A DNA stretch of 63,990 bases. It comes from Oscillospiraceae bacterium. GTDB taxonomy: Bacteria > Bacillota > Clostridia > Oscillospirales > Oscillospiraceae. The stretch spans positions 1 through 63,990 of the forward strand of contig JAFRPC010000049.1 in assembly GCA_017429325.1 (NCBI GenBank). Direction: 5' to 3'. A program made the translations under genes and the position numbers. Positions 1-25,033 of the stretch are shown here, piece after piece (position 1 is the first letter of the stretch; every line of letters begins with the position of its first letter). Under the pieces are notes generated by a model, which saw nothing but the letters and a program-made list of their open reading frames with translations, had not been told where the DNA came from and searched no databases.

Positions 1-3000
1 CAGTACCGTTGACTGTTTCTGCCACAGTCACAGTGTAGTCGATGGCCTTGAAGGTCGCGGTGACAGTGACGTTGGAGGCGGGCATGGTGAACTGATCATG
101 CTCCACCGCGATTTCGTTGTTGCCCGCGTCCTTGACAAGCAGGGCGTCCAACGCATAGCCTGCGTCCGGAGTGACGGTCAGGGTGACGGTATCCCCGAGA
201 TGCAGGTTTTCCGTTGGGTCGGCAGTCACGGTGCCGTTTTCGTAAGCCGCAACCGTTACGGTGAAGTCGATGAGCTTGAAGGTGGCGGTCACAGTGACAT
301 CGGATGCGGGCATGGTGAACTGATTGTTCGTCACATCTACAGTTTGGTTCTCGCCGTAGGTTACAGTCAGTGTGTCCAGCTCCCAGCCCTCGTCGGGCGT
401 GACGGTCAGGGTGACGGTGTCGCCCGTATGGGCTGAGGTCGGATCTGCGGTGACGGTGCCGTTGACGGTATCGGACACGGTCACGGTGTGCATGACCTCC
501 TCAAACACTGCGGTGACGGTGACCGAGGAGGCGGGCATGGTAAAGTGTCCGTTCACCAGGTCGACCTCGTTGCCCTCTGCGTCTGTGACGGTGAGCGAGG
601 CAATCTGCCAGTCGGCATCGGGTGTCACGGTGAGGTTCACGCGTTCGCCGGCCTTCGCTGCGGTCTTGTCCGCAGTGACTGTGCCGTGCTCGGTTGGCGC
701 AATCGTGACGGTATAGGGCGCGAGCTTGAAGTAGGCCAGCACCAGGACGTTCGCCGCGGGCATGGTGAAGGTGTTGTCCTCATTCAGGGGGATGGAATGG
801 TAGACAAAGTCGTAGACGTAGATCCGATCCAGGACGTAGCCCTCCGCAGGCTCCACCGTCAGGGTAATCTCGTCGCCGGCGTTGGCAACGGATTTGCTGG
901 CCGAGACGCTGCCGTTGACAGCAGGCGGCACCGTGAGGGTGTAGTCTGTGGCGGCGACCTGCACCGTGACGGTCACGTTGGAGGCCGGCATGGTGAAGCT
1001 GCCGTCTGTCACAGGGATCTCGTTTCCGTCTTCATCAGTGACGGTAACTGACGTGAGCGGATAGCCCGCGTCGGTAGTGACGGTGAGGGGAACTGTATCC
1101 CCGTAATGGGCGGTTTCGGGCACTGTGACCGTAGCGTGGGTCGGCGCATTGACGGTGATGGTGTAGTCGATTGCCTTGAAGACTGAGCTGACGGTCACGT
1201 CGGAGGCCGGCATGGTGAAGGTGTAATTTGCGCTGACGGTCACAGGATTGTTGTCTGCATCCGTGACGGTGAGGGCATCCAGGCGGTAGCACGTGTCGGG
1301 CGTGACGGTGATAACCACAGTCTGCCCGGGCCGGGCGGTCGCTTTGTCGCTGGTCACAGTGCCGTGCAGTGTGTCAAGAACTGTGACGGTGTAAATCCGG
1401 GTGAAGGTGGCAGTGACGGTGACGTTGGAGGCGGGCATGATGAACGTATAGGTTCCGTTTTCTTCGACTGCCAGCTCTACAACGCGATTCTCCGCATCCG
1501 CCACGGACAGGCTTTCCAGCGCATAGCCCTCGTCGGGGGTCACAGTCAGGGTGACTGTGTCGCCCGAGGCAGCTTTCTGCACGTCAGCTGCGACTGTGCC
1601 GTTTATAATACCGCCGTCCACAGTCACGCTGAACAAGGGGTTCAGAATGGGAATCAGCTTGCAGGCATTCTGAATGTTGGATGTGGTGGCAAGAATCTCC
1701 TCGCCATCAATTAAGAAGAACTTGCCCTGCACAAAGGTCAGATTGTCGGCGCTGACGTTACGGCTGGACTGGATAAAGTCTGTCTCTTCGGTCCAGCCGA
1801 AGGTGATGACGTCGCCCACAAGGCCGTTGTTTTTTCCATTCTTGGAATTGACGCCCGGGCCGATGCCGTAGCCGTTCGGGGAGCTGGCGGTAATCTGACC
1901 GCCGGTGATCGTGATGGCGGTCACGTTTCCGGCGCCGGCAGCATATATCTCCGTACCGCCGCCGCCGATGCCGGCGCCGTACCCGTTGCCGACAGCGGAG
2001 ACCTCGCCGCCGGTGATCATGATCGTATCCAGACTGCCGTAGTGTCCGCCCCAATCGGGATTGCTGCCGCCACCGATGCCGGCTGCGTTTGTTCCGCCTG
2101 TGGCAGAAACCTTGCCGTTGTTGATGGTTATGCTGCCAGCGGAACTGTGCAGACCGCCGCCGATGCCCGCGCCGTAGCTGCCTCCGGTTGCGGTAATCTC
2201 ACCGCCGTTGATCACGATGATACCGACGCCAAGCTGATTGCTGCCGATGGCAGCATTGTTGTAGTTCGCCCTCGCGGTCAGCTTGCCGCGGCAGTCGCTG
2301 TGGGACTGCGCCCAGATGGTCAGGCTGTTGTTGCCGCCGACGGCAATGCCTTTTGTGGCGTTTAGCGTTGCGCCGTCGCAAAGGATCAGGTTGACGCTGC
2401 CGCTGACGGTCAGACGGTTGTTATTTGTAATGTTGCCGAAAACGACCCACCAGCCATCGGTCAGCTCCGTCGTGCTTGCGTTGAGGGACGCAACGTCAGA
2501 AACAGGCGTCATGGGGTTGCCCTGGGCGTCCACATAGGGAACCGACGTGCCGAACGTTGCCGTAACCGTGACGGCGGAGGCAGGCATGGTGAATTGATTG
2601 CCCGATACTTCAATTGGGTGATTGTTTGCGTCAATCACTGTAACCGATTGCGGCACATAGCCCTCTGCCGGGATGAACGTCAGCGTGACGGTTTCGCCAA
2701 CCGTTGCTGTCGATTTGTCCGCTGTGACGGTACCGTTCTCGGTATCTGCAATCGTAATATCGTAATTGATGGCGTTAAAGCTCGCCGTAACGGTGACGTT
2801 CGCCGCAGGCATGGTGAACCGGTCGTTCTCAACCGGGACGGTCTGATCTTCCCCGCAGGTCACGGTCCAGCAGTTGAAGCTGTACCCCTCATAAGGAGTC
2901 GCGGTCAGCGTGACGGTGTCACCGAGGTGCGCTGTTGTCCGATCTGCTACGACCGTGCCGCCTACGGGCGCAAGCACGGTGACAGTATAGTCAATGGGCG

Positions 3001-6000
3001 CAAAGACTGCCGTGACCGTGACGTCAGACTGCGGCATGGTGAAGCGGTTCTCCGTCACTGGCAGCACGCTGCCGTCAGCGTCGATTACAGAAAGACTCTG
3101 CAGCTCGTAGCCCTCGTCGGGTGTGACGGTCAGGGTAATGACGTCGCCGACGTTGGCGGCCACCGGCATCGAGGTGATGCTGCCGTGCTCCGCGGGCGCT
3201 ATCGTGACGGTATAGGGTGCGAGCCTGAAGCAGACCAGCACCACGACGTTGGCGGCGGGCATAGTGAAGCTGTTTTCCGAGAGGGTGATCTCGCTGCCGT
3301 CTTCGTCCAGAACGGTGATCGACTCCACCACGCAGCCTGTGTCGGGGGTGACGGTCAGGGTGACGGTGTCGCCATAGTGAGCGGTCTGGGGCCAGGCCGT
3401 GACGCTGCCGTGCTCGGTTTCGGAAACCGTCACGGTATAGTCGTTGGGAGTGTAGATTGCGCTGAACGTCACGTCGGCGGCGGGCATGGTGAATTGGTTC
3501 TCCGTCACGGGGATCTGGTTGCCCGTGCTGTCGATGACGGCGAAGCCGGTCACGGTGTAGCCCACAGCGTCCGGGGCGGTGAGGCTCACAACATCGCCGT
3601 AATAGGCCGTTTGCTTGTCGGCGGTGGGCGTGCCATGTGCAGACTCCACCGGGGTGATGGTATAGACGCCGCGTTCAAAGACGGCGGAAAGGGTCACGTC
3701 GCTGGCCGGCATGGTGAAGCGCCAGCCGTCGTCTTCCTCCGTCACCGGGATCGTTACGCCGTTTTCATCCTCTGCCCGGAGCTCGGAAAGCACATAGCCG
3801 ATCTCTGGCTGCACCAGCAGAAGGACGCTCTCGCCCGCGTGGTAGATCGATTGCACGGGCTCCACAGTGCCGTGGTCCCCGACATAGCCTGCCACCTGAT
3901 AGTCGATGGCGTCGTAGTGGGCAACGACATAGGCCTCGCCGTCGGGCATGGTGAAGCTGCCGTCGGTTCCGACGGGGATTTCGTTGCCCGCCGCGTCGGT
4001 CACGGTAAAGTGGTTAAAGGAATAACCGGCGTCGGCCACAACGGTCAGGGTCACGGTGTCGCCCGGGTTTGCTCTGGCGGGGGTGGCGGTGACGGTGCCG
4101 TGGGCGCTTTCGATGCGCACGCCGAAATCAGAGCGGTGTTCCAGCTTGACGGTTTTGGGATTCGTGACGTTTCCGTCGGAATCGTAAATCCGGCTGCCGT
4201 CGTGGGAACCGCCTTCCGGGGTCGTGACGCCCAAATCGTCGCTGATGTACAGGCTGCCGTAAGCAAGTGCGGCATTGTTGTAGTCTATGACTTCAACGCT
4301 GTCGATCCCCTTTTCAAACCGCAGCTCGCCGTTATCGGCTCGGAAGGTGCTCGCCAAATAGTTGGTCGCTTTGACCGTTCCGTCGGCAACGGTGATATTT
4401 TTGCACCAGACGGCTTCAAACCAGGTTATAATTTCAAACTCGCCCTTCAGAATGACGGTGCCATTCGGCACATAGATGCCGCGCGGACGAGTCGAGCTGT
4501 CGTGGGTGTCGATCTTCGCGCTGTTTTCGCCCTGGATAATCAGCTCCGGCAGCTCTGAGTAGATGGTATTGGGGTGGTTCGCTGTGGCGTGACCCGCCGT
4601 CCAGGTGCAGGTTCCCCGCAGCGTCAGGGTATGGGTCTTATGGTCGTAGCTTGCCGTGCCGTCGCCAAGGACGTCGTCAAAGTTTCGGTTGCTGACCTGG
4701 GTGTCGCCCAGCCACAGAGGATAGAGGACCTCGCCCTGGTCAAAGGTGACGGTGACGGTCACGTCGGATAAGGGCATCACGAAGGCGTCCTCCGTCACCG
4801 GAATGCGGTTGCCGTCCGCATCCGTTACCATAACGACACCGGGCATGTATCCGGGATCCGCCAGATACTCCAGACTGACGGTCTGGCCAGCTATTGCGGT
4901 GGTCGCAGAGGGGATCACGGTTCCGTGCTCGGTATCCGCCACAATGACGTTGTAGAGGATCGGCGCACAGCTTGCATATACCGTAACGTTTTCCATCGGC
5001 ATGGTGAGGCGGTAGGTCTCGCCCTCTTTCGTGAAGGGGACCCGGTCGTCCGTTTCGGTTCGGACCTCCACCGCGCCAAGGGTGTAGCCCGCCTCGGGGG
5101 TCAGGGTGAAGCTGACCTCAGTGCCGAGGGTGAGGTTGTTGGCCTGGGGGCTGACGGAGATGGCCGCGTGGCTGGCGGGGTCCACCGTAACAGACAGAGG
5201 CTTGTTCCCGATGACCACACGGTTCACCACACTGCCGCTGGCATTCACCACGTTGACCCCGTTGCAGTAGCCGCCCGCGGGGGTCGTGATGGCAAGCTCC
5301 GAGCCGCACACGACGCTGCCCGCCGCGACTGCCTTGCCGTTGTGGTCATACCACACGCCATTATAGGATTGCCACTGGCCAGGGGCTGACGTCAGCCGCG
5401 CGCCGTTGCTTACCGAAAGCGTACCGCCGTTGCGGCAGTTGACGTTGGTATAATTCCCACCGATTCCGACGACCCTCACATTGCCGCCGGCAATATGGAT
5501 GTTGTCCGCCAGAAGCGCATTTGATCTCGAGTATACGGTAATGTCGCCATTGACGGTCAGGCTGCCGTTTTCTACCCAGATCCCGTAGCCGACGTTCACA
5601 CCCGTCTGATCACTGCGGAGGGTGCCGTTGCATACGACGGTCAGGTCGATCCCGCTGGCCTTGATCAGGGTGTTGCTTTGAGCCAAAGTATTGTTAAAGC
5701 TGATCGAACCGGGATTGTCCGCATACAGCGTCTGGGTGTCGGGGTCATAGCGCCACTGACCGTTCTTGAAAATGTCGCCCATGTTGCGGTTGGTCACCTG
5801 CGTGTTACCGATCCAGACGGGATAGCTGACCGGCGTGTCCACCTCCCGCTCACAGAGGATCGAGATCGTGATGTGATCGTCGGTCACCTCTCTCATCTTG
5901 AACGTGCGCATATTGTACCTTGAGCCGCCGTTAACGCCTCCGGCAATCTCTGCCGAGCCGCCGCTGATCCGGTAGAGATTGTCATAGGAGCAGGTATAGC

Positions 6001-8782
6001 CCTCCGGCGTTCGGACGTACACTTTGATATACCCGGATTGCGGCATGATGATGTAATTCTCGGTTATTTCATGAGTTTCATCATCATTCAGCCAGTAGAA
6101 GGGTTCGTCTGTCGGTCCATAGTAGCCGTAGGTTTCAAACACCAAGGGATATTTGATCTTGTCAAAGTACGCCTCCACTTTGGCGCCGCCCTTCGGCATC
6201 CGGAAGGTATAGGTGCTCTCATCCACCACGGTCACGGATACCACGGTGCCGTCGCTGGCTCCGGTCACGAGGAAGCCGCTCAGCTTGCTGTAGCGGTTCG
6301 GCACTGCGCTGATGGTCACCGTGTCATAGATCTTTGCCGAGCTGACGTCCGAGGTAAGGGTGCCGTCCCCGAACGTCGCGAGAGTGACATCGTATTCGCC
6401 GTCGTTTGCAATCTCGTTCAGATTCGCGTACACGTTCCATGCCGGCATGATGAAGCGGAACTGCCCATTCCCCAGCGCCTCAAAGGGAACGCTGCCGGAA
6501 TCGTAGGTGAGCCGCAGGCTGTCGATCCAGCTGTCTGCCGACGTACCGGGCGTGTAGGTGAGGGTCACGCTGGTGCCGGGGGCGATGCTGCCGGAGGGCT
6601 CCACCGTGACGGTGCCGTTATTGCCGTTGTTGATTCTGGTCTGCACCGTATAGCTTCCGCTTGTCGGCATGACGATCACGGTGTGCACGTTCTCCGCGTT
6701 GAAGCTGGCGTCACAGAAATGCTTGCCGTTCCTGCCGCCCTGATACGGCTCATAAAGGAAAACACCGTTCATGCTCAGGCGGCTGAATTCCGCCGGATAG
6801 CCATGGCTGGATGCAAGCTTCACCGTCCGGATGCCGCTGCCGAAGCTCAAGCCGGTTTCACCCGTGACCCTCACGCCGATGGCATCCTGCTGCCCCACAA
6901 AGATATCGACTGCGCCGCCCTCAAAGGAGACGTTGGACGCCACGATGCCGCCTTTTTGAGTATTTGTTTTGATTTCCGTATTGCTGCCCTGAATGGTAAT
7001 GGTGCTGGTCGGCGCGAAAATGGCGTAATCCGCCTCCGCAGAGCCGGTCTGCGCAAGCGTGGCGGTGCCGGTGATCTTCAAATCAATCCCGTCTGCCTCG
7101 ATCAGCGCATCGTTTCCACTCGTCTGGGCAAGGCCGACCAGATCGTTCAGCGTCAGGGTTCTGCTGGGGTAATCAAAGCTGGCTTTGCCGTCGCCGAAGA
7201 TGTCCGCGGCGTTGGTGCTTGTGACGCGTACGCCGCCCACGATAAGCGGATAGCCCTCTGCAAAGGTCGCCGTGACCGTCACCGCCGAGGCGGGCATGGT
7301 GAATTTCCAAGCCTCGAGGAACTCAATGAGCTCAATCTCGTTGCCCGTGCTGTCCTTGACCGTGATGGTTTCCAGATGCCAGCCCGCATTCTCGGAGATG
7401 TACAGATTGACCGAGGCCCCCGGCACAGCGCTGTTATAAGAGGCGCTGACCGAGCCATGCTGGGCGGACGTCACCTGTATGGCATAGGACTTTTGCCGGA
7501 ACGTGGCCGAGACAGTCACATCCTCGGCGGGCATTTTAAAGGACCAGTCGCTCCCCGCGCCTGTCAGCTCGACGGTTTGGCCCCCGGCGGTTTGCACCTG
7601 TACGGAGGTAAACTCATAGCCCTCCTCCGGGGTGACGGTCAGCTCAACCGTTTCTCCCTCCGGCTGCCGCAGCAGCGCAGTCGTCACGCTGCCGCCCGTG
7701 ATGTCTTCCGAGATCAACACATCATAGAATGGCCAGTCAGAGAAGTTCGCATAGACCGAAACGTCCTCGTCTGGCATGGTAAAGGTATAGGTGCCGTTGC
7801 TACATGTGACTGGCGATACCGGGCCGGTCTCCCCATCAATACTGATGTCGTTGAGGTACATCCCCTCGTCGGGCACCGCCCACACGGAGACGGGCTGGCC
7901 GGGATAGACTTTGCCCGCCGGCTGGTCGCTGACCAGCGTTCCGCCCCAGTCCGCGCTCAGCAGCAGGATCTTTGCCTCCTTAGGCGCAACGCTGACGCTG
8001 GCCGCGGGGTTGCCGCCGTCGTTCACGGTGCGGCCGTCGGCACTGAGGGTGTACGACGCCGGGGCGGTCACCTGAACATTGTCGCTCAGCCAGATGCCCT
8101 GGAAGGCGTAGATGGCCGGAGCACCCTGGGCGCCGCTGGCCGTCAGGGTGACGTTGCTTCGGCTGTAGCGCAAGTCGATGGGCGAGCCGATCTCCAGCAC
8201 GCCGAGGAAGGCGTAGATGCCCGCCCCCGGCACCGGGTCCGAGGTCTCGTTGGCATAGCCGAAGCTGGTGGCCGTGAGTGTGCCCTGCCGCAGATGCAGT
8301 TCTCCGGCCCGGATGCCGTAGTAGTAACCGTTGGCATTCAGGCCCGTCTTGTTTTCGTCGTCGTCCAGATACAGGCTGCTCGCGTAGACGCCGGTATCCT
8401 TGCCGGTGGTGGTCAGCGAGCCGGAGCCCCGGACCCGCAGCGAGCCGGTGACGCGGACGCCGTAGTCCGACTGGTTGAGGATGGTCCTGCCGCTCAGCTC
8501 CAGGATCAGGTCCCCGGTGGCTTCGATGGCGGATTCGCCATTATAGGTGCGCGTGCCGAGGCTGTCGAGATACAGCGTGTTCGCGGCGGGATCATAGCGC
8601 ACGGTGCCGTCCTCCAGCACGTCGCCTTTGTTTTCCTCTGTGACCTGTGTGCCCAGAACCCAGACGTCGTAGCTGACAGGGTCGGTCTCCTCTGCCCTTG
8701 CGCCAAGTGTCAGGCCGGAGAGACAACCCAGGAGCATCAGCAGCGTTAGGCAGAGGCTCGCCAGGCGTTTGAATTGTTTCAT
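1..8782 (-). CDS. Giant secreted repeat protein with divergent InlB-type repeats (3' end beyond window)
   Basis: The minus-strand frame is open from ATG 8782 to the left edge (about 2927 codons, no stop), so the gene is partial. AGGAGG lies at 8789-8794. The N-terminus is a Sec signal peptide (MKQFKRLASLCLTLLML..., cleavage probably after ALGARA-type small residues). Four beta-helix-like modules each open with a YDVWVLGTQVT-like motif, near residues 33, 511, 987 and 1352. Between and after them are about 23 copies of a roughly 70-residue repeat ending in FTMPASDVTVTATF-like motifs, the hallmark of the divergent InlB B-repeat family. A Gly-rich AGIGGG beta-helix segment lies near residues 2160-2300. 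Very high Thr/Val content and the signal peptide point to a cell-surface or extracellular adhesin-like fibre; the ligand is unknown. Any wall anchor would lie outside the window. It is the last gene seen in the leader-peptide operon. Long plus-strand ORFs over this region are antisense shadows. Confidence 0.88.
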   Translation of the reverse strand, partial: MKQFKRLASLCLTLLMLLGCLSGLTLGARAEETDPVSYDVWVLGTQVTEENKGDVLEDGTVRYDPAANTLYLDSLGTRTYNGESAIEATGDLILELSGRTILNQSDYGVRVTGSLRVRGSGSLTTTGKDTGVYASSLYLDDDENKTGLNANGYYYGIRAGELHLRQGTLTATSFGYANETSDPVPGAGIYAFLGVLEIGSPIDLRYSRSNVTLTASGAQGAPAIYAFQGIWLSDNVQVTAPASYTLSADGRTVNDGGNPAASVSVAPKEAKILLLSADWGGTLVSDQPAGKVYPGQPVSVWAVPDEGMYLNDISIDGETGPVSPVTCSNGTYTFTMPDEDVSVYANFSDWPFYDVLISEDITGGSVTTALLRQPEGETVELTVTPEEGYEFTSVQVQTAGGQTVELTGAGSDWSFKMPAEDVTVSATFRQKSYAIQVTSAQHGSVSASYNSAVPGASVNLYISENAGWHLETITVKDSTGNEIELIEFLEAWKFTMPASAVTVTATFAEGYPLIVGGVRVTSTNAADIFGDGKASFDYPSRTLTLNDLVGLAQTSGNDALIEADGIDLKITGTATLAQTGSAEADYAIFAPTSTITIQGSNTEIKTNTQKGGIVASNVSFEGGAVDIFVGQQDAIGVRVTGETGLSFGSGIRTVKLASSHGYPAEFSRLSMNGVFLYEPYQGGRNGKHFCDASFNAENVHTVIVMPTSGSYTVQTRINNGNNGTVTVEPSGSIAPGTSVTLTYTPGTSADSWIDSLRLTYDSGSVPFEALGNGQFRFIMPAWNVYANLNEIANDGEYDVTLATFGDGTLTSDVSSAKIYDTVTISAVPNRYSKLSGFLVTGASDGTVVSVTVVDESTYTFRMPKGGAKVEAYFDKIKYPLVFETYGYYGPTDEPFYWLNDDETHEITENYIIMPQSGYIKVYVRTPEGYTCSYDNLYRISGGSAEIAGGVNGGSRYNMRTFKMREVTDDHITISILCEREVDTPVSYPVWIGNTQVTNRNMGDIFKNGQWRYDPDTQTLYADNPGSISFNNTLAQSNTLIKASGIDLTVVCNGTLRSDQTGVNVGYGIWVENGSLTVNGDITVYSRSNALLADNIHIAGGNVRVVGIGGNYTNVNCRNGGTLSVSNGARLTSAPGQWQSYNGVWYDHNGKAVAAGSVVCGSELAITTPAGGYCNGVNVVNASGSVVNRVVIGNKPLSVTVDPASHAAISVSPQANNLTLGTEVSFTLTPEAGYTLGAVEVRTETDDRVPFTKEGETYRLTMPMENVTVYASCAPILYNVIVADTEHGTVIPSATTAIAGQTVSLEYLADPGYMPGVVMVTDADGNRIPVTEDAFVMPLSDVTVTVTFDQGEVLYPLWLGDTQVSNRNFDDVLGDGTASYDHKTHTLTLRGTCTWTAGHATANHPNTIYSELPELIIQGENSAKIDTHDSSTRPRGIYVPNGTVILKGEFEIITWFEAVWCKNITVADGTVKATNYLASTFRADNGELRFEKGIDSVEVIDYNNAALAYGSLYISDDLGVTTPEGGSHDGSRIYDSDGNVTNPKTVKLEHRSDFGVRIESAHGTVTATPARANPGDTVTLTVVADAGYSFNHFTVTDAAGNEIPVGTDGSFTMPDGEAYVVAHYDAIDYQVAGYVGDHGTVEPVQSIYHAGESVLLLVQPEIGYVLSELRAEDENGVTIPVTEEDDGWRFTMPASDVTLSAVFERGVYTITPVESAHGTPTADKQTAYYGDVVSLTAPDAVGYTVTGFAVIDSTGNQIPVTENQFTMPAADVTFSAIYTPNDYTVTVSETEHGSVTAWPQTAHYGDTVTLTVTPDTGCVVESITVLDEDGSEITLSENSFTMPAANVVVLVCFRLAPYTVTIAPAEHGSITSMPVAANVGDVITLTVTPDEGYELQSLSVIDADGSVLPVTENRFTMPQSDVTVTAVFAPIDYTVTVLAPVGGTVVADRTTAHLGDTVTLTATPYEGYSFNCWTVTCGEDQTVPVENDRFTMPAANVTVTASFNAINYDITIADTENGTVTADKSTATVGETVTLTFIPAEGYVPQSVTVIDANNHPIEVSGNQFTMPASAVTVTATFGTSVPYVDAQGNPMTPVSDVASLNASTTELTDGWWVVFGNITNNNRLTVSGSVNLILCDGATLNATKGIAVGGNNSLTIWAQSHSDCRGKLTARANYNNAAIGSNQLGVGIIVINGGEITATGGSYGAGIGGGLHSSAGSITINNGKVSATGGTNAAGIGGGSNPDWGGHYGSLDTIMITGGEVSAVGNGYGAGIGGGGTEIYAAGAGNVTAITITGGQITASSPNGYGIGPGVNSKNGKNNGLVGDVITFGWTEETDFIQSSRNVSADNLTFVQGKFFLIDGEEILATTSNIQNACKLIPILNPLFSVTVDGGIINGTVAADVQKAASGDTVTLTVTPDEGYALESLSVADAENRVVELAVEENGTYTFIMPASNVTVTATFTRIYTVTVLDTLHGTVTSDKATARPGQTVVITVTPDTCYRLDALTVTDADNNPVTVSANYTFTMPASDVTVSSVFKAIDYTITVNAPTHATVTVPETAHYGDTVPLTVTTDAGYPLTSVTVTDEDGNEIPVTDGSFTMPASNVTVTVQVAATDYTLTVPPAVNGSVSASKSVANAGDEITLTVEPAEGYVLDRIYVYDFVYHSIPLNEDNTFTMPAANVLVLAYFKLAPYTVTIAPTEHGTVTADKTAAKAGERVNLTVTPDADWQIASLTVTDAEGNEVDLVNGHFTMPASSVTVTAVFEEVMHTVTVSDTVNGTVTADPTSAHTGDTVTLTVTPDEGWELDTLTVTYGENQTVDVTNNQFTMPASDVTVTATFKLIDFTVTVAAYENGTVTADPTENLHLGDTVTLTVTPDAGYALDALLVKDAGNNEIAVEHDQFTMPASNVTVTATFKAIDYTVTVAETVNGT

Positions 8783-8828: not shown

Positions 8829-9071
8829 TCAGGGTTCTTCGGGATCGGGCTTCACGGGGTACGGATGCGGCTTGACGATGGGGACGTCGTTCCATGCGCT
8901 GCCGCCTTCGCCGCCGGCGACCTGGTCCAGCTCATCCTCGGAGAGCGCGTGCATGACCTGCAGGGCGGTGTTTGCTTCGACGAGTGCTTCGTTGGCTGCC
9001 TTGACTGCCTCTGTTGCCTTTTTCACGGCTTCTTGTGCCTTGTTTTCCAGCTCTTTTTTCGTCTTTCTCAT
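8829..9071 (-). CDS. Double-glycine leader peptide (putative exported peptide precursor)
   Basis: An 80-residue protein with AAAGGAG ahead of ATG 9071. Residues 1-42 form an Ala/Glu/Lys-rich amphipathic helix, followed by LSEDELDQVAGG (residues 43-54). This is a classic double-glycine processing motif with the hydrophobic spacing recognised by C39 peptidases. The putative released peptide (residues 55-80) is Pro-rich, has no Cys and ends DPEEP. The motif is almost the same as the LDEDMLDAVSGG of the Nif11-like peptide at 17510-17818, so both are plausible substrates of the C39 transporter at 20652. It sits between two giant surface-protein genes on the same strand. The function of the mature peptide (bacteriocin, signal or surface-protein partner) cannot be read from the sequence. 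Confidence 0.75.
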   Translation of the reverse strand: MRKTKKELENKAQEAVKKATEAVKAANEALVEANTALQVMHALSEDELDQVAGGEGGSAWNDVPIVKPHPYPVKPDPEEP

Positions 9072-17509: not shown

Positions 17510-17818
17510 CTAAATCAGTTTTTCTTCCCCGAATCCCATGACATAGTAGATCCAGGTGTGCAGTACGTCGAGCTTCTCTTGCTGTGTCAATCCGCCGCCT
17601 CCGCCGGAAACTGCGTCCAGCATGTCCTCATCCAAAAGCTCGATTTGCTCCTCGGGCGGGCAGCTCTTTTCCGGCACGATCCGATAGCCGTTGCGCTCCG
17701 CCAGAGCAATGATTTTTTCCGGCTCAATCGATCCCGGAATCGCAACCGTCTGCTCGTGGAGACTTGGGTCGCTTCTACACAGAATCGCGAATTGGCGTGC
17801 AGTAATCTGTTTCATCAC
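17510..17818 (-). CDS. Nif11-like leader peptide (RiPP/bacteriocin-type precursor)
   Basis: 102 residues. The N-terminal 60 resemble the Nif11 leader domain: RQFAILCRSDPSL, then EKIIALAERNGYRIV. They are followed by LLDEDMLDAVSGG (residues 61-73), a double-glycine cleavage motif. The predicted released part (74-102) is hydrophobic in the middle (VLHTWIYYVMGFG) and has no Cys, which argues against a lanthipeptide. Starts: GTG 17818 is 9 nt after AGGAGG (17830-17835) and ATG 17815 follows immediately; either is possible. It is the first gene after the shared regulatory element at 17877-17901. Nif11 leaders are known substrates of NHLP-type exporters, which are encoded at 20214-25033. Confidence 0.82.
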   Translation of the reverse strand: MMKQITARQFAILCRSDPSLHEQTVAIPGSIEPEKIIALAERNGYRIVPEKSCPPEEQIELLDEDMLDAVSGGGGGLTQQEKLDVLHTWIYYVMGFGEEKLI

Positions 17819-17866: not shown

Positions 17867-17901
17867 ATTATAAAAGGCAAAGCGTGCAATAGTGTGACAA
17901 A
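17867..17901 (-). promoter_or_regulatory. Promoter with SARP-type direct repeats upstream of Nif11-like peptide operon
   Basis: On the minus strand a 25-bp element (17877-17901) contains TTGTCAC-ACTA-TTGCACG, two heptamers in an 11-bp period. A TATAAT -10 box follows at 17867-17872. No good -35 is present at 17 bp, which fits an activator-dependent promoter. The identical 25 bp occurs at 20122-20146 in front of the exporter operon. Confidence 0.78.
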
Positions 17902-17903
17902 AA

Positions 17904-17942
17904 AACGCCTTCGGGCATAAAAAAACGCCCGAAGGCGTTATT
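17904..17942 (-). terminator. Terminator of the two-component operon
   Basis: AACGCCTTCGGGC (17904-17916) pairs with GCCCGAAGGCGTT (17927-17939), a 13-bp stem. T-runs lie on both sides, so it is potentially bidirectional. It lies just 3' of the response regulator gene and directly upstream of the regulated promoter, insulating one unit from the other. Confidence 0.88.
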
Positions 17943-17955
17943 TTAGAAAATTTTT

Positions 17956-18753
17956 TCAGAAATTGAATATCAGCATTCCTGCCGTGACCTCAGCCCAGGA
18001 ATATTGCAGCATAAAATCGCCGTTGAAGGAATTGATGGCGGCCATATCTCCGTCCCTCATCCGGTAGAAGTCACAGTCGATGCGGGCGCGGTTGACAGCG
18101 ATGCTGCCCCGATGGCGGATCAGCGCGTCCTCCATGCCGATTTCCCTGAGCGTTGTAAGCAAGTCGTGCAGCAGCGTTCGGATCCGGGTCCCCGCCAGCT
18201 TCATATCGTCTTCCTCTTCCCAGAGCGCGGTGGAAATCTCTCCGTGGGTGCAGCTCGTGCCTTCTCGGCTGATCAGATAGGCAAAAAGCTCTTTGGTCTG
18301 CCGCCGCTGAAAATGCAGGGGCTTGTTCTGCCAGAACACCTCAAAATAGCCAAAGCAGCGGACCGTCAGCTTTTCCGGCTCCAGGGGCAACCGGGCCGGG
18401 GGAAGCGCGTCCAGCTCCGCCCGAATCTTTTCGGCGTTGACCGGCTTGAGCACATAGCCGCTGGCACGGCACTGAAATGCGTCCAGCGCGTATTCCTCAT
18501 AACCCGTGACAAATACGATCCTGGTCTGCGGCGAAAGCGTCCGGATCCGAACAGCTAACTCCAGCCCGGTCACGCCGGGCATTCGGATGTCAGAGAACAC
18601 CACGTCCGGCCGCAGCCCCTCCTCCCGAATGGCGTCCAGCGCAGGCTGCCCCAGCAGGAAGTCCCGAATCTCCGCCTCCGGCGCAGCCTCTGCAATCGCG
18701 GCGTGAAGATATTGCAGCAGCTTCCGTTCATCATCAATCGCAAAGATCAGCAT
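17956..18753 (-). CDS. Response regulator, receiver + SARP/BTAD-type DNA-binding domain
   Basis: 265 residues. The receiver domain (about 1-120) has the acidic pocket IDDE, the phospho-acceptor Asp in VVFSDIRMPG and the conserved Lys in YVLKPV. The C-terminal part (about 128-265) is a winged-helix of the OmpR/SARP type: LTVRCFGYFEVFWQNKPLHF, then KELFAYLISREG, ending in the DCDFYRM...FNGDFMLQYSWAE pattern typical of clostridial SARP-like response regulators. It starts 3 nt after the histidine kinase gene, so the two form one operon. Regulators with this domain bind direct repeats with an 11-bp period close to the -10 box, which is what the 25-bp elements at 17877-17901 and 20122-20146 contain. 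I infer that it activates both flanking operons. Confidence 0.88.
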   Translation of the reverse strand: MLIFAIDDERKLLQYLHAAIAEAAPEAEIRDFLLGQPALDAIREEGLRPDVVFSDIRMPGVTGLELAVRIRTLSPQTRIVFVTGYEEYALDAFQCRASGYVLKPVNAEKIRAELDALPPARLPLEPEKLTVRCFGYFEVFWQNKPLHFQRRQTKELFAYLISREGTSCTHGEISTALWEEEDDMKLAGTRIRTLLHDLLTTLREIGMEDALIRHRGSIAVNRARIDCDFYRMRDGDMAAINSFNGDFMLQYSWAEVTAGMLIFNF

Positions 18754-18756
18754 GAT

Positions 18757-20034
18757 CTATCCTCCTTTTTTAATGGGCACCCGAATCGTTGCAACGGTTC
18801 CCGCTCCGAGTTCAGAGCGAATCGTCAGGCTTCCGCCATGGTCCTCCAGGCGGGAGCGGACGTTTTGAATTCCGATGTGCGGTTTCCCAGCCGAGGGCGG
18901 GACGGTTGTGTCAAAGCCCGGGCCGTCATCCTGCACGGTGATCTCATAACAGTCTGTTTTCTTATCCGCAAAGATTCTCACAATTCCTCTGCCATCCGGC
19001 TTCATACGCACGCCGTGGCGCACCGCGTTTTCCACCAGAGGCTCCAGCGTCAGGGGCGGCAGGAAAAAGTCGGTACAGGTGATGTGATACTCCACCTGCA
19101 AGGCATCCTCGAAACGGGTCTGCTCCAGCTCCAGATACAGCTTCGCATGGGCGAGCTCCTTTTCAAACGGAACGGTCTTGTCCTCGGAGATCCCGGCCAG
19201 ATTGCTGCGCAGATACTGGGAAAACCTGGCGGTGGCCTGATTGGCTGCCTTCGGGTCGGTCAGGCAGAGGGCCTCGATGGTCTCCAACGTGTTATAGAGA
19301 AAGTGGGGCTTGATTTGCGAGAGCATGAGCTGCATCCGCTGCCGCTCCCGCTCCCTGCGAACCATCTCCTGCGCGCCCTGCAAATGGGGCCACAGGTAGT
19401 ACAGCGTACAGCAGCCTACAATGGCGATGGTCAGAAACGTGACCGGCTGTTCGGAGTATCCTACGATGTAGTCCATCCAAATGGAGATCAGAACGATGGG
19501 AACGATAGCAATCGGAATCCAAATCTCCTTGCCGTTTGTTTGGTGTGATTTGCGAGCACTGATCCAGACCAGGCCCGCAAGCAATATGAGGCTGATGACC
19601 AGACAGGTATTTGACAGTGGTCCGCCCTGATAGCGATTATTTTCAATGAAAAAAACGAGATGAGAAAACAGGGCGGTCAGGTAAAGTGCAGTGTTGAGTC
19701 CCACCAGCACCCAGCCCTGCCGGAAGTGGTGCTCCGGCTCCACCAAATAGTAGGGCAGCAGCAGGATGATGGGACGCAGAATGAAACCGGAAATCGACAG
19801 AACAGTCCGAAGCATGTCTCGCGGCGTACTGCCGGCGGCAATCAGGTTTTCCGTGTAGTTCTGCGCGATGAGCCCCAGGACAAGGGTCAGCAGCAGGCCG
19901 AATACCTGTTTTTGCCGTTTGCTGAAATAGGCGTCCACCGAGATTGCAAAAGCAAGCCCACCCACCTGAATCACAAGCGGTATCATCGCCATGAGCATAT
20001 AGGTGGCTTGTTGATCCAGGTGCAGGGAGAACAT
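18757..20034 (-). CDS. LytS-like membrane sensor histidine kinase
   Basis: 425 residues with AGGAGG upstream of ATG 20034. The N-terminal half (about 1-210) holds six or seven hydrophobic segments with no obvious extracellular ligand domain. The kinase part is of the His_kinase/LytS class: the phosphorylatable His lies in QIKPHFLYNTLE, the N-box is EPLVENAVRHG and the G-box is DDGPGFD followed by GIQNVRSRLE. It partners the response regulator encoded immediately downstream. Many such membrane sensors near peptide export genes detect peptides or membrane state, but the stimulus here is unknown. Confidence 0.9.
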   Translation of the reverse strand: MFSLHLDQQATYMLMAMIPLVIQVGGLAFAISVDAYFSKRQKQVFGLLLTLVLGLIAQNYTENLIAAGSTPRDMLRTVLSISGFILRPIILLLPYYLVEPEHHFRQGWVLVGLNTALYLTALFSHLVFFIENNRYQGGPLSNTCLVISLILLAGLVWISARKSHQTNGKEIWIPIAIVPIVLISIWMDYIVGYSEQPVTFLTIAIVGCCTLYYLWPHLQGAQEMVRRERERQRMQLMLSQIKPHFLYNTLETIEALCLTDPKAANQATARFSQYLRSNLAGISEDKTVPFEKELAHAKLYLELEQTRFEDALQVEYHITCTDFFLPPLTLEPLVENAVRHGVRMKPDGRGIVRIFADKKTDCYEITVQDDGPGFDTTVPPSAGKPHIGIQNVRSRLEDHGGSLTIRSELGAGTVATIRVPIKKGG

Positions 20035-20121: not shown

Positions 20122-20159
20122 TTTGTCACACTATTGCACGCTTTGCGGTGTATTATAAT
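20122..20159 (+). promoter_or_regulatory. Promoter with SARP-type direct repeats upstream of NHLP exporter operon
   Basis: The 25 bp at 20122-20146 are identical to the reverse complement of 17877-17901 and contain TTGTCAC-ACTA-TTGCACG. A -10 box follows as TATTAT (20151-20156, the same 22-bp distance from TTGTCA as at the other site) or TATAAT (20154-20159). No consensus -35 lies at 17 bp. It probably controls 20214-25033. Confidence 0.78.
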
Positions 20160-20213: not shown

Positions 20214-20636
20214 ATGGAGCAGAGAAAAAACAGTATATTCAGAAATCAGGCTGTCGAGAAGATTTCCCCCCCGGATCAGCTTTCGGATTATCTGCGGGTG
20301 ACCAATCCCGGCGTATGGGTGGTGCTGGCAGTGATCATCCTGCTGCTGATCGGACTGTTTGTCTGGTCCTGCATCGGGACGCTGGAAACTACCGCGGATG
20401 TGAAGGTCATTGTGGAGGATCACAAGGCGGAGATTCTCCTCCTTGATGGCAGCTCTGTGGAGGCTGGAATGCCCCTTCGGGTGGCCGGGCAGGAGGTGAA
20501 AATCGCCTCCGTTGAAACAGATAAATACGGCCGAACGCTGTGCTATGCGGAGCTGCTTTTGCCGGACGGAACCTATGACGGCGTGGTGGTCGTCCAGCAA
20601 ATACGTCCGATTTCTTTCCTGTTTGAAAGCAACTGA
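20214..20636 (+). CDS. Minimal HlyD-like NHLP-system secretion protein
   Basis: 140 residues from ATG 20214, preceded by AAGGAGAG. The start IFRNQAVEKISPPDQLSDYL, the following VTNPGVWVVL and one transmembrane helix (about residues 35-56) match the N-terminus of NHLP bacteriocin-system secretion (periplasmic adaptor-like) proteins. The usual long coiled-coil and lipoyl domains are missing; only about 80 extracytoplasmic residues remain. It is therefore far shorter than typical family members (about 250-400 residues), perhaps a reduced form suited to a single-membrane cell. It is the first gene of the exporter operon, ending 15 nt before the C39 transporter gene. Confidence 0.78.
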   Translation: MEQRKNSIFRNQAVEKISPPDQLSDYLRVTNPGVWVVLAVIILLLIGLFVWSCIGTLETTADVKVIVEDHKAEILLLDGSSVEAGMPLRVAGQEVKIASVETDKYGRTLCYAELLLPDGTYDGVVVVQQIRPISFLFESN

Positions 20637-20651: not shown

Positions 20652-22829
20652 ATGGAAATCACAAAGAAAAAAGCTGCTCTAAAATCGGGCGTCGCGAAGG
20701 TCCCCATGGTGATGCAGCTGGAGGCGCTGGAATGCGGCGCGGCCTGCCTTGCCATGGTGCTGGCTTATTATGAAAAATGGATCCCGCTGGAGCAGGTGCG
20801 GGTGGACTGCGGCGTGAGCCGGGACGGCTCCAAGGCGAAGAATATCGTGCGTGCCGCAAGAAGCTACGGTCTTGCGGTGAACGCCTATCGCATGAGCCCG
20901 GAGGCGCTGCGGGAAAAGGCGAACTATCCCTGCATCATCCATTGGAACATGAACCACTTTGTTGTGCTGAATGGCTTCCGGGGCAGGTACGCTTATATCA
21001 ACGATCCGGCCCGAGGAGTCATGAAAATTTCCATGGAGGAGCTTGACAATTCCTTTACTGGCGTTGTTCTGCTTCTGGAGCCGGGCAGCAGCTTCACCCC
21101 CGGCGGGAAGCGGGAGAGCACCGTCGCCTTTGCAAAAAAGCGGCTGGTGGGCACCGGAGCGGCGGTGGTGTTCGTGGTGTTGACTACGATTATTACCTAT
21201 CTGTTTGGTATTGCCAATTCCGTCACCGCAAGAATCTTTCTGGACCGGCTGCTGACCGGCGTCAATCGGGACTTGCTGACGCCATTCCTGATTGTCCTGC
21301 TGGTACTTGCCGTCATCCAACTGATCGCCGCGTGGATTCGGGCAATCTATGCCTACAAGATCAACGGCAAGCTGGCCTTGGTGGGCAGCACGAGCTTTTT
21401 CTGGAAGGTTCTGCATCTGCCCATGGAGTTTTTCAGCCAGCGGCTGGCGGGAGATATTCAGCTCCGGCAGGACCAGAACGCTTATATTGCCGGAACGCTG
21501 GTCGGCACCTTCGGCCCGCTGATTCTGAACACCACCGTGATGGTGCTGTATCTGGTGCTGATGCTATCCCAGAGCATTCTTTTGAGCATCGTGGGGCTCG
21601 GCGTGCTGGCGCTGAATATGGTGCTGGCCCGGGTGATTTCCAACCGGCGCATTCATATTACCAGGCTGCAGCTGCGGGAGCAGGGCAGGCTGGAGGCCGC
21701 CACCGTCACCGGAATTGAGATGATCGAAACCATCCAGTCCAGCGGCTCGGAGCAGGGATATTTTCAAAAATGGGCAGGACACCAGGCGGCGGTCAACCGG
21801 CAGGAAATTCTGACGGAGCAGACCCATCAGCTGCTGGGCGGCATCCCCACCTTTTTGACCACGTTGGCGAACCACGCTGTGCTGGTGCTTGGCATCCTGC
21901 TCACCATGCAGGGCCGGTTTACTCTGGGTGGCGTGATGATGTTCCAGGGCTTCCTGTCCGCGTTTTTGTCTCCGGCCATACAGATGGTAAACGCAGGCCA
22001 GGCGCTGCAGGAGATGCGCACCCAGATGGAGCGGGTGGACGACGTGATGGAATACCCGGACGATCCGGGACTTGTCTCCAAAGCCGACGCCGACGCGCCC
22101 TTGGACAAGCTGCGGGGCAACGTGGAGCTGAAACATGTCACCTTCGGCTATTCCAAATTGGAGGAGCCGCTGATTTCCGATTTCTCCCTCTCCTTAAAAA
22201 CCGGCCAGCGGGTGGCCCTGGTGGGCGCCTCCGGCTGCGGCAAGTCCACCATCACCAAGCTGATCTCCGGCCTGTACCAACCCTGGAGCGGGGAGATCCT
22301 CTTTGACGGCAAGCCGCGCACGGCTTATCCCCGTGAGGTCATGACGGGCTCGGTTGCCGTGGTGGATCAGGAGATTGTTCTATTTGAAGACACGGTGGAA
22401 AACAACATCAAGCTGTGGGACAGCTCTATCCAGGACTTTGAAATGATCCTGGCCGCCCGGGACGCGCAGCTCCACGAGGACATCGTGCAAATGCCCAGCG
22501 GGTATCAGCACAGACTAACAAACGGTGGAAAGAATCTCTCCGGCGGTCAGCGGCAAAGGCTGGAAATTGCCCGTGTTCTGGCGCAGGACCCGACCATCAT
22601 CATCCTGGACGAGGCCACCTCCGCACTGGACGCCAAGACGGAATATGATGTGATCAACGCCATCCGGGATCGGGGTATCACCTGCATTGTGGTTGCGCAT
22701 CGCCTGTCCACCATCCGGGACTGCGACGAGATCATCGTCCTGGACCGGGGGCAGGTGGTGGAGCGGGGCACCCATGACGAGCTGATGGCCCGGGACGATG
22801 TGTACGCCTCTCTTGTGGCAAATGAATAG
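20652..22829 (+). CDS. NHLP-type C39 peptidase/ABC transporter (leader-cleaving exporter)
   Basis: 725 residues. The N-terminal C39 peptidase (about 10-150) has the catalytic Cys in LEALECGAACLAM, His in WNMNHFVVLNG and Asp in INDPARG, so it should be active. Six membrane helices (about 165-440) follow, then the ABC ATPase with Walker A GASGCGKST, signature LSGGQRQR, Walker B IIILDEATSALD and H-loop VVAHRLS. Such proteins cut leader peptides after Gly-Gly and export the remainder across the membrane. Candidate substrates are the two peptides with nearly identical L.ED.LD.V.GG motifs at 8829-9071 and 17510-17818. The partner transporter gene starts 11 nt downstream. Confidence 0.95.
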   Translation: MEITKKKAALKSGVAKVPMVMQLEALECGAACLAMVLAYYEKWIPLEQVRVDCGVSRDGSKAKNIVRAARSYGLAVNAYRMSPEALREKANYPCIIHWNMNHFVVLNGFRGRYAYINDPARGVMKISMEELDNSFTGVVLLLEPGSSFTPGGKRESTVAFAKKRLVGTGAAVVFVVLTTIITYLFGIANSVTARIFLDRLLTGVNRDLLTPFLIVLLVLAVIQLIAAWIRAIYAYKINGKLALVGSTSFFWKVLHLPMEFFSQRLAGDIQLRQDQNAYIAGTLVGTFGPLILNTTVMVLYLVLMLSQSILLSIVGLGVLALNMVLARVISNRRIHITRLQLREQGRLEAATVTGIEMIETIQSSGSEQGYFQKWAGHQAAVNRQEILTEQTHQLLGGIPTFLTTLANHAVLVLGILLTMQGRFTLGGVMMFQGFLSAFLSPAIQMVNAGQALQEMRTQMERVDDVMEYPDDPGLVSKADADAPLDKLRGNVELKHVTFGYSKLEEPLISDFSLSLKTGQRVALVGASGCGKSTITKLISGLYQPWSGEILFDGKPRTAYPREVMTGSVAVVDQEIVLFEDTVENNIKLWDSSIQDFEMILAARDAQLHEDIVQMPSGYQHRLTNGGKNLSGGQRQRLEIARVLAQDPTIIILDEATSALDAKTEYDVINAIRDRGITCIVVAHRLSTIRDCDEIIVLDRGQVVERGTHDELMARDDVYASLVANE

Positions 22830-22840: not shown

Positions 22841-25033
22841 ATGGGTTGGTTCAGCAATCAAATTGAAGAGCGGCGCTCAACTGATCAACAGCTGCTCGAG
22901 GACTCCTTCGTCAAGGTTGCAGGAGTTGTACTTGGACAGCGCAGCGCCGAAAAAATCAGCGACGCTCGGATCGTCACAAAAAATGCCATCGACGAAATCC
23001 TGAAGGCTTATCACTACAGACCGGTGGAGCCGCCGGAGTCCCTACAGGACACAGAAGGGCAGTTGGATTACTGCCTGCGGCATTACGGCCTCATGCGCCG
23101 AACGGTGGAGCTGCTTGACGGCTGGTACAGGAACGCCTACGGCCCCATGCTGGGCTTTTGGGGCAAGGAAAAGCTGCCGGTTGCCCTGCTGCCGGGTCGC
23201 TTTCACGGATATTACTATACGAACCCGAAAACAAAGGAACGGGTCAGGCTGACCGGAAAAACTGCCGCTTCTCTGGACGCAGAAGCCTGGTGCTTCTACC
23301 GCCCCCTGCCCCTAAAGAAATTGGGGATGAAGGATTTGCTTCTCTATATGAAGCGGTGCGTCTCTTTGCGGGATATGGCTTCGATTGTCGGCGCGACGCT
23401 GGCAGTGACGCTGGTGGGCCTGCTGCTGCCGCGCCTGACCCGGGCGCTGACCGGCCCAGTGCTGCAAAGCGGCACGGCAAGCGCGCTGGCCGGGGCAGCT
23501 ATCTGCGTGCTGTGCGTGCTGATCGCCTCGCAGCTCTTAACGTCGGTCAAAGGGCTTGTCGTCAAGCGGCTGGAGGTCAAGACCAGCCTGGGCGTGCAGG
23601 CCTCCATGATGATGCGGCTGTTGTCGCTGCCCGCCAGCTTCTTCCGGGATTACAGCCCCGGCGAGCTGAAAAGCCGCGCCATGGGCGTGAGCACACTCTG
23701 CTCGCTGCTGATCGGGATTGTCATGTCCACGGGACTCAGCTCGATTTTCGCGCTGCTCTACCTGCCGCAGATTCTTCGTTTTGCGCCATCCTTGGCGCTG
23801 CCGTCGCTGGCTGCCACCGTACTGACCGTGATCGTCACCGCCGCCGCCACCTTCGTACAGGCGCGAATCAACCGCAAGCACTTGGAACATGAGGCCAAGG
23901 AAGCAGGTCTGCGCTACGCACTGCTCTCCGGCGTGCAGAAGATCAAGTTGGCCGGCGCGGAAAAGCGCGTTTTTGCCAAGTGGCTGGATCTATATGCCGA
24001 GGGTGCGGAGCTGGTCTACAACCCGCCCACGCTTGTAAAAGTCAGCAGCGTGCTCACCCTGGCCGTCAGCCTGCTGTCCAACGTCCTGCTGTATGGCCTT
24101 GCTGTGAAAAACAGCGTTGCGCCCGCGTCATGGTTTGCTTTCTCAGCGGCTTACGGTGCTCTCATGGGCGCGTTTACAGCCTTGGCGAACACCGCAGCCT
24201 CGGCTGCGAAAATCCAGCCCATTCTGGAAAACGCCGAGCCCATTTTATCGGCGGTGCCGGAGACCGGAGAGGGCAAGGAACTCGTCACCGCCCTCAGCGG
24301 CAGTGTGGAGCTGGACCATGTGTCCTTCCGGTACAGCAGCGACACGCCGTACATTTTGAAGGACCTCTCCCTGAAGATCCGTCCCGGCGACTATGTGGCC
24401 CTTGTGGGCAAAACCGGCTGCGGGAAATCCACCCTAATCCGCCTGCTTTTGGGCTTTGAGACCCCGGAGAGCGGCGCGGTGTATTACGACGGGAAGGATC
24501 TGCGGAGCTTAGACCCGGCCTCCGTGCGAAAGCACATCGGCACGGTCATGCAGGACGCCGGGCTGTTCCAGGGGGACATCTACTCCAACATTGCGATTTC
24601 AGCCCCGCAGTTGGGGCAGGCGGAGGCCTGGGAGGCCGCTGAGATCGCCGGGGCAGCCAATGACATCCGCTCCTTCCCCATGGGAATGCACACCCATGTG
24701 GCCGAGGGGCAGGGCGGCATTTCCGGCGGGCAGAAACAGCGGATTTTGATTGCCCGGGCGATTGCTCCGAAGCCGAAGCTCCTGATCTTCGACGAGGCAA
24801 CCTCGGCTCTGGACAATAAAACGCAAAAGCACATCTCCAAGGCTCTGGACGCCATGGATTGCACCCGCATCGTCATCGCCCACCGTCTGTCTACGATCAA
24901 AAACTGCAGCCGCATTCTGGTGCTTGACGGGGGCAAGATCATCGAGGAAGGAAGTTATAACGAGCTGATGAAACGTGACAGGTTTTTCGCCGATCTGGTT
25001 CGGCGACAGCAGCTCACAACAAACCAAGAATAA
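22841..25033 (+). CDS. NHLP-type ABC transporter, permease/ATPase partner subunit
   Basis: 730 residues with AGGAGGTG before ATG 22841. The N-terminal 190 residues contain the GYYYTNPKTKERVRLTGK and WCFYRPLPLKKLGMKDLL stretches typical of the second NHLP ATPase subunit. Six membrane helices follow, then an ATPase domain with Walker A GKTGCGKST, signature ISGGQKQR and Walker B LLIFDEATSALD. The protein is shorter than many family members because an N-terminal cyclic-nucleotide-like domain is absent. It probably forms a heterodimer with the C39 transporter encoded just upstream. It is the last clear gene of the exporter operon. Confidence 0.92.
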   Translation: MGWFSNQIEERRSTDQQLLEDSFVKVAGVVLGQRSAEKISDARIVTKNAIDEILKAYHYRPVEPPESLQDTEGQLDYCLRHYGLMRRTVELLDGWYRNAYGPMLGFWGKEKLPVALLPGRFHGYYYTNPKTKERVRLTGKTAASLDAEAWCFYRPLPLKKLGMKDLLLYMKRCVSLRDMASIVGATLAVTLVGLLLPRLTRALTGPVLQSGTASALAGAAICVLCVLIASQLLTSVKGLVVKRLEVKTSLGVQASMMMRLLSLPASFFRDYSPGELKSRAMGVSTLCSLLIGIVMSTGLSSIFALLYLPQILRFAPSLALPSLAATVLTVIVTAAATFVQARINRKHLEHEAKEAGLRYALLSGVQKIKLAGAEKRVFAKWLDLYAEGAELVYNPPTLVKVSSVLTLAVSLLSNVLLYGLAVKNSVAPASWFAFSAAYGALMGAFTALANTAASAAKIQPILENAEPILSAVPETGEGKELVTALSGSVELDHVSFRYSSDTPYILKDLSLKIRPGDYVALVGKTGCGKSTLIRLLLGFETPESGAVYYDGKDLRSLDPASVRKHIGTVMQDAGLFQGDIYSNIAISAPQLGQAEAWEAAEIAGAANDIRSFPMGMHTHVAEGQGGISGGQKQRILIARAIAPKPKLLIFDEATSALDNKTQKHISKALDAMDCTRIVIAHRLSTIKNCSRILVLDGGKIIEEGSYNELMKRDRFFADLVRRQQLTTNQE

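Follow-up and report, generated by a model that had tools for sequence, protein, structure and literature searches.

A double-glycine peptide gene found beside genes of one giant SLH protein family in Oscillospirales genomes, and the NHLP-type exporter that accompanies it

The stretch of DNA analysed here (the window) is an entire contig of 63,990 nt, JAFRPC010000049.1 of assembly GCA_017429325.1, from an Oscillospiraceae genome (G000) that is 73% complete. Its left part encodes two short peptides with double-glycine (GG) leaders, pepA and pepB, two giant surface proteins, giantA and giantB, a two-component system, and an NHLP-type exporter with two ATP-binding cassette proteins, ABC1 and ABC2. 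In relatives, pepA and the giantB family form a conserved unit that is found in exporter-carrying genomes, often beside the exporter itself and in many cases with a subtilase. The minus strand carries, in this order, kinase, response regulator, pepB, giantB, pepA and a giantA truncated at the contig end. The exporter genes diverge from the kinase on the plus strand: short adaptor, ABC1 with its C39 domain, and ABC2. The features are:

2..8782, minus strand: giantA, with a signal-peptide-like start and InlB B-repeats; truncated by the contig end (the contig starts at base 1)
8829..9071, minus strand: pepA, an 80-aa double-glycine peptide with a 54-aa leader and a 26-aa core
9104..9130, minus strand: hairpin between giantB and pepA, without a T run; read by eye
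9153..17483, minus strand: giantB, 2776 aa, with a signal-peptide-like start, Calx-beta, CARDB and three SLH stretches; the conserved neighbour of pepA
17510..17815, minus strand: pepB, a 101-aa double-glycine peptide with a weakly Nif11-like leader; candidate pheromone
17877..17901, minus strand: 25-bp element in the promoter of pepB, with TATAAT four bases downstream
17899..17944, minus strand: terminator-like hairpin 3' of the regulator gene
17956..18753, minus strand: response regulator, its C-terminal part weakly like Trans_reg_C (E 0.046, below cut-off)
18757..20034, minus strand: sensor kinase with six hydrophobic N-terminal segments, His_kinase and HATPase_c
20122..20146, plus strand: second, identical copy of the 25-bp element, before the exporter operon
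20214..20636, plus strand: short adaptor, 140 aa, with one membrane segment; resembles the N-terminus of the NHLM HlyD model
20652..22829, plus strand: ABC1, with C39 peptidase, permease and ATPase (TIGR03796)
22841..25033, plus strand: ABC2, permease and ATPase (TIGR03797-like)

A first-pass annotation of this sequence had described two GG-leader peptides and two giant Sec-type surface proteins on one strand, and all four lie where it placed them. It also located pepB correctly, but the likely start is the ATG at 17815, one codon after the GTG it had chosen. The GG-leader pattern, applied to the short open reading frames (ORFs) of the window, finds pepA and pepB and no third peptide. The leader ends and cores read ...DELDQVAGG|EGGSAWNDVPIVKPHPYPVKPDPEEP for pepA and ...DEDMLDAVSGG|GGGLTQQEKLDVLHTWIYYVMGFGEEKLI for pepB, and neither peptide matched a Pfam or NCBIfam family above cut-off in the family scans. 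The evidence that this layout goes beyond chance comes from relatives, not from the window alone.

A pepA profile (A2) was built from eight peptides of seven loci where a giant neighbour was already known; in the family it matched 20 of 400 genomes. Two matches were judged false by eye: one with an internal stop (G299, contig C16), and a weak one (G026, E 3e-4) whose removal leaves pepA in 19 genomes rather than 20. Of 13 further A2 loci, nine have a giant as the direct neighbour and two have a giant-like or SLH piece at the contig edge; the remaining two end too soon, G342 stopping at the peptide and contig C35 of G148 having no giant on its visible side.

The search was also made from the other side, with a profile covering the central portion of giantB. 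This matched 26 of the 400 genomes at E ≤ 1e-10 and 19 at E ≤ 1e-140 (termed strong), the latter comprising 21 places. Of these places, 20 have a GG-type peptide beside the giant; the two genes are separated by a subtilase gene in G247 and G285:C1, and G257 is counted by assuming that its contigs C5 and C63 hold two parts of one gene. The sole exception, G225:C163, has its 5' end cut by the contig end and no peptide on the other side. A2 found the peptide in 17 of the 19 strong-giantB genomes, and G150 and G390 carry a divergent peptide recognised by eye. Seven of the 26 genomes were not strong. Three of these were inspected (G152, G252, G339 and G375 were left out): G094 has a GG peptide 3' of the giant, G268 is cut, and G074 has none.

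In total, pepA is present in 19 of the 400 genomes, strong giantB in 19, and both in 17 (Fisher p = 8e-26), and each of the two is associated with the exporter at p = 3e-15; these tests treat related genomes as independent, which they are not, and the 400 genomes of the exporter, pepA, pepB and giantB surveys are taken as one set, as their handles and totals agree. When a tree of 49 exporters is labelled from the inspected loci, pepA requires nine changes of state, at least six of which are forced by well supported branches. The co-occurrence in relatives that the first-pass annotation had proposed looking for is present for pepA, strong giantB and the exporter. Its suggestion that each peptide acts with the protein encoded next is not supported: pepA tracks the giantB family on either side, and pepB tracks the two-component system. 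A pairing of pepA with giantA was rejected because giantA-type genes are in few pepA loci and giantB in nearly all.

The pepA–giant pairing recurs in three further families (f13, f23 and f26). A search of 315 genomes of the order gave 12 giantB matches at E ≤ 1e-20, three of them from the same family as the window; eight of the nine non-family giants were inspected, leaving out G689. A GG peptide lies directly beside the giant in G659, G641 (the span of this giant taken from its open frame), G503 and G552, with exporter genes in view at G659, G503 and G552. The giants of G550 and G444 lie near contig ends. In a pattern check over 33 giant loci, 22 gave a peptide next to the giant, a further 2 gave one on the far side of a subtilase gene, and 9 gave none; two of these 9 (L130 and L170) have a peptide by other evidence. 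As a control, 21 of 324 other genes of 300–1500 aa from the fetched loci, some overlapping, had such a neighbour, and 17 of these are module genes by reading.

At several exporter loci the neighbour of a giant SLH protein is a short peptide of GG, GA or GS type, GDPFADIPRVPENPIDDELRKDG being one example of the core. GA and GS cut sites are known for GG peptides and are rarer than GG, according to the sections of PMC7595303 drawn on here. Nine named records with close relatives of pepA are genome bins labelled Oscillospiraceae or Clostridia. Six of the nine titles give host sites (rumen, omasum, duodenum, abomasum or reticulum of goat, sheep or water buffalo), and one further record has a name reminiscent of a rumen genome project.

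giantB has three stretches of Calx-beta, three of SLH, and CARDB above the Pfam cut-offs. By these SLH domains and its hydrophobic start, the latter from a simple hydropathy scan only, it is an SLH surface protein. Most of the length of the giant can be aligned across 18 loci, the exception lying around giantB residues 1141–1320. giantA is at least 2927 aa long, with the InlB B-repeat family above cut-off in 21 stretches, and continues beyond the window edge. giantA-type genes were called in few pepA loci. In four genomes an ORF of 40–49 aa without a GG motif, e.g. ...VLRDVLTASGKDWDLPVV..., lies 3' of giantA-type genes (L147:2832-2954, L145:8989-9135, L135:3879-4028 and L140:19281-19424); none was seen in G013, and the window ends before the corresponding position. 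To the left of giantA, G013 has a cation exchanger and housekeeping-looking genes.

The exporter had been described as a full NHLP-type system adjoining the two-component system, and this holds as a parts list only, because ABC2 and the short adaptor miss the curated TIGR cut-offs. ABC1 exceeds the cut-off of TIGR03796 (900.3 vs 853.3 bits), its C39 domain being PF03412. ABC2 reaches 707.2 bits against TIGR03797, 2 bits short of the 709.4 cut-off. The adaptor, scanned as the longer ORF 20052–20636, scores 25.9 bits against TIGR03794, where the cut-off is 156.2 bits, and covers the first 53 of 421 positions.

Searches for ABC1 covered 23 genomes of the genus and the 400 of the family, with matches in 9 (E ≤ 1e-80) and 49 (E ≤ 1e-180), respectively. 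The surroundings were inspected at 46 of 52 family exporter places and at the genus loci with a simple codon-usage gene finder; this performed poorly in seven AT-richer loci (L080, L084, L088 and L090–L093), and small genes may be missed in general. All 19 pepA genomes carry the exporter, 17 at E ≤ 1e-180 and two (G099 and G173) at 39% identity. The first-pass annotation had held that relatives with exporter and peptides but no giants would refute a peptide–giant tie. This is partly the case: 30 of the 49 exporter genomes have neither pepA nor strong giantB, and many of them carry unrelated GG peptides.

That the same exporter clade goes with quite different GG peptides and no giants in many genomes favours another explanation, in which pepA is secreted without modification and serves a separate purpose (for example as a signal to neighbours or a narrow bacteriocin), and lies beside the giant only because one promoter drives both as surface-phase products. 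Co-transcription could explain the adjacency, and some of 14 pepA members weakly match GG-peptide models: two the VP1 pheromone NF033772 (best E 0.008) and one ComC (E 0.002). The pairing, however, is kept across genera and families despite changes in regulators, subtilase and gene order, and the core is better kept than the leader. No immunity gene was recognised by eye, no search aimed at such genes having been made. A separate job for the peptide is possible but doubtful, and it ranks second; direct action of pepA on the giant is the most likely reading.

Other gene associations were seen around the exporter. GG peptides whose core repeats a 'YG.G' or 'YGN' motif, e.g. ACINGDYGNGEARFAALRKAGFDPNVVQGLVN, occur at seven loci (L058, L059, L060, L061, L066, L069 and L071); these loci belong to the same exporter clade, and no giants of the giantB family were called there. 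Arrays of GG peptides adjoin the exporter in L068, L070, L075 and L095, some with paired CxxC motifs (zinc-ribbon-like). The exporter is surrounded at L163:3701-9842, and at other loci too, by STAS-domain proteins, a 66-aa partner and an ECF sigma factor (Pfam), which might offer a different means of control. A Nostoc S-layer homology protein appears in Table 2 of PMC2887384 among the proteins whose distribution tracks the NHLP exporter, which, as far as that table goes, is a possible older hint of a link between exporter and SLH proteins.

The secreted part of pepA is better conserved than the part that is removed. Of 18 peptides compared, the 13 that bear arginine and are easily aligned were used for the count, excluding the pepA of the window and other arginine-free types. 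Mean identity over their 78 pairs is 57% in the core and 24% in the 22 leader residues before the GG, and the core is the more alike in 75 of the 78 pairs. Synonymous and nonsynonymous differences in the core number 12 and 2 between G285 and G247, 9.8 and 8.2 between G285 and G107, and 4 and 1 between the two copies in G247; the two copies in G107 have none. The higher identity of the core and the lower rate of nonsynonymous (pN) than synonymous (pS) differences therefore indicate that the secreted part is under constraint.

This conservation bears on a further alternative, that pepA belongs to a system making ribosomally synthesized and post-translationally modified peptides (RiPPs), with its modifying enzyme encoded elsewhere. 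The part of PMC2887384 drawn on here describes NHLP exporters with modified precursors, and gives these precursors hypervariable cores. pepA-type peptides reverse the RiPP pattern of hypervariable core and conserved leader, and the core of pepA lacks Cys and Thr and contains a single Ser. pepA has no match to TIGR03798 or Pfam Nif11. Among the 14 members there is one match to the model for the lantibiotic plantaricin C (E 2.4e-5), and the Type-A lantibiotic model is matched weakly by three. No solved structure resembles pepA at E ≤ 1. A scan of phage families gave one weak tail-fibre match, to the helical part of pepA, and defence models had no match to the peptides or giantB and generic ones to the subtilase.

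The first-pass annotation saw no RiPP-modifying enzyme, and the searches made here agree: none was found on the window contig by motif, nor among the matches listed in a search of 20 genomes for radical SAM PF04055. The motif search (CxxxCxxC and CHG) covered the called genes of 31 pepA loci, the window being included up to 40 kb. It yielded a radical SAM protein 8 kb from pepA in L130, a motif in an ABC transporter that is put down to chance, and one CHG in a protein that looks unrelated, so that L130 is the one pepA locus with a radical SAM candidate by motif. The contig ends inside giantA; in G014, an unclassified radical SAM protein (460 aa) is encoded on the opposite strand, some 2 kb beyond giantA. 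Neither the G014 nor the L130 protein reached a curated cut-off among the matches listed. In G018, of the same genus and with 57% exporter identity, a LanM (326.6 bits, cut-off 304) and a radical SAM gene lie near the exporter (L022:12670-16097) in what resembles a lanthipeptide locus, and therefore exporters of this clade can also serve lanthipeptides; pepA was not found in G018. These enzymes, the lantibiotic matches and the published association of NHLP exporters with modified precursors favour a RiPP origin. A modifying enzyme for pepA is nevertheless unlikely, and the RiPP explanation as a whole is very improbable.

A subtilase accompanies the unit in many relatives. Peptidase_S8 was confirmed in all eight chosen proteins neighbouring the peptide or giant, two of which have SLH domains. 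Of ten genomes searched, G002, G217 and G150 have such a gene, G014 has a 35% match, and the other six have none. The three S8 genomes have arginine-containing cores, and those of G000, G013, G390 and G299, with no S8 match, are arginine-free. On a further reading, the subtilase would process the giant and would either cut pepA or be inhibited by it, the peptide thereby timing the cutting or release of the giant; the presence of S8 proteins beside peptide and giant in many loci and the distribution of arginine would suggest this. Against this, G000 (incomplete as it is), G013, G390 and G299 keep peptide and giant without an S8 match of this type; G014 combines an arginine-free core with its 35% match on another contig; and G659 has arginine in the core and no S8 gene called in the inspected stretch, this genome not having been searched. 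We consider this explanation unlikely, if less so than a RiPP origin.

pepB has a different distribution. Its leader falls below the cut-offs of TIGR03798 (16.5 vs 32.3 bits) and Pfam Nif11 (17.6 vs 23.8 bits). A profile from four of the five known loci (G013 being outside the 400-genome sample) matched 4 of the 400 genomes. At each of the five loci, the first gene called downstream of the regulator on its strand is pepB, with a gap of about 1 kb in G148, where the leader is alike and the core different. The gene after pepB is giantB in G000, G013 and G014; in G002 pepA intervenes, and in G148 the contig ends. The kinase is of the PF06580 type, and pepB may be a candidate for its pheromone, judging by its sequence and position. 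In G002, transposase-like genes lie on the opposite strand between regulator and kinase (L020:14326-15400; by eye).

The first-pass annotation had not noted the 25-bp element. Its copies before pepB and before the exporter are identical, and 100 shuffled versions of the window contained no match. Allowing up to three mismatches, a 20-base segment of it occurs only at those two places in the incomplete G000 genome. G013 has related sites before pepB (21/25) and the exporter (19/25), against a random baseline in which 2585 of 3000 190-base pieces score 11–13/25 at best. The distance to a –10-like box seems to be preserved at the pepB sites of G002 and G014. The element can be read as two 7-base repeats 11 bases apart, an arrangement that may resemble the sites of SARP-type regulators.

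Two hairpins accompany the operon. Inverted repeats similar to that at 9104–9130 are found in G013 and G014, with a compensated C-G to T-A change (by eye), and the hairpin may set the ratio of pepA to giantB. Terminator-like hairpins resembling 17899..17944 also precede pepB in G013, G014 and G002 (by eye). Directly past the exporter operon is a tRNA-Ala (CGC) at 25456–25531 on the minus strand. Right of the module, the region 28053–63559 has core-chromosome-like genes (SMC, FtsY, LeuRS, SecD/F, sporulation genes and RecN, judged from their first residues).

Gene content, the repeated pairing across genomes, the conserved core and the common promoter element, all read from sequence, lead us to propose a peptide–giant module with its own pheromone control in this genome, in which pepA acts on giantB outside the cell. 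Export of pepA by this exporter in unmodified form, its contact with giantB, the pheromone role of pepB and the binding of the regulator are the steps we infer. The C39 exporter would cut pepA after the GG and release the core; giantB would leave by the Sec route and be held in the wall by its SLH domains; and pepA would there serve as a small partner of giantB – a ligand, subunit or assembly factor. A secreted subtilase would be part of the unit in many relatives. pepB, cut and exported, would signal to the adjacent kinase, and the response regulator would bind the 25-bp element and turn on the exporter operon and the pepB–giantB–pepA–giantA operon together. We hold this proposal tentatively, at slightly less than even confidence. 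A broader version, that pepA-type peptides are obligate extracellular subunits of the giantB family, often with the subtilase as a processing enzyme, is appreciably less probable.

Several observations weigh against the proposal. The peptide is 5' of the giant in some loci and 3' in others, and the distant giants of G670, G420, G444 (near a contig end) and G074 have no GG peptide in the inspected stretch. Pooled across genera, the core has pS 0.60 and pN 0.30, a moderate constraint overall. No solved structure resembles giantB residues 1380–2280 at E ≤ 1, and a search for the pepA core motif inside the giants gave matches at noise level only. With respect to control, pheromone cores often diverge, and the pepB core is well conserved in the genus. 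The element scores 15/25 at pepB of G002 and 14/25 at that of G014, values matched or beaten by 41 and 302 of the 3000 random pieces; it was absent from the scored exporter promoters of G002, G014 and G011, and from the region before pepA in G000, G013 and G014.

If the broader version with obligate subunits is right, Gram-positive surface structures in several families of the order would be assembled by two routes, C39 and Sec, and an NHLP exporter would be used outside natural-product making. Annotation reads NHLP exporters as bacteriocin exporters, and genome-mining tools may call such loci bacteriocin clusters; cores better kept than their leaders, in the company of one giant family, suggest that GG peptides can have a part in structure or assembly. 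The recurrent adjacency of peptide and giant in gut bacteria with a matching pump suggests, at the level of gene arrangement, joint work outside the cell. Whether a core of about 23 residues binds the giant is a testable question. In the literature searched, mostly without subscription journals, no description of a peptide–giant tie was found, and the portion of a rumen bacteriocin survey drawn on here (PMC13289728) does not mention NHLP or the S-layer.

Parts of the module resemble known systems. As in NHLP/NHLM export systems, a C39 ABC protein, a second ABC protein and an adaptor are in one operon, with ABC1 over its cut-off; unlike them, the window has an ABC2 just short of its cut-off, a much shorter adaptor, peptides below the curated precursor cut-offs, and no modifying enzyme seen on its contig. 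The ComAB-CSP-ComDE and BlpAB-BIP-BlpHR circuits, as outlined in the relevant sections of PMC7595303, share a C39 exporter and a GG peptide gene beside kinase and regulator. The window also has a common element before exporter and peptide, as in pheromone circuits, with putative regulator binding. Its putative circuit differs in having a PF06580-type kinase and an operon that includes giant SLH proteins. Pneumococcal VP1 is likewise a GG peptide, with a role in biofilms, but the similarity to pepA is weak and the account of VP1 in those sections of PMC7595303 mentions no giant partner. giantB has the signal-peptide-like start, repeat-rich body and SLH domains of SLH-anchored surface proteins; what sets its family apart from these is that it is tied to a 20–26-aa core of a GG-leader peptide.

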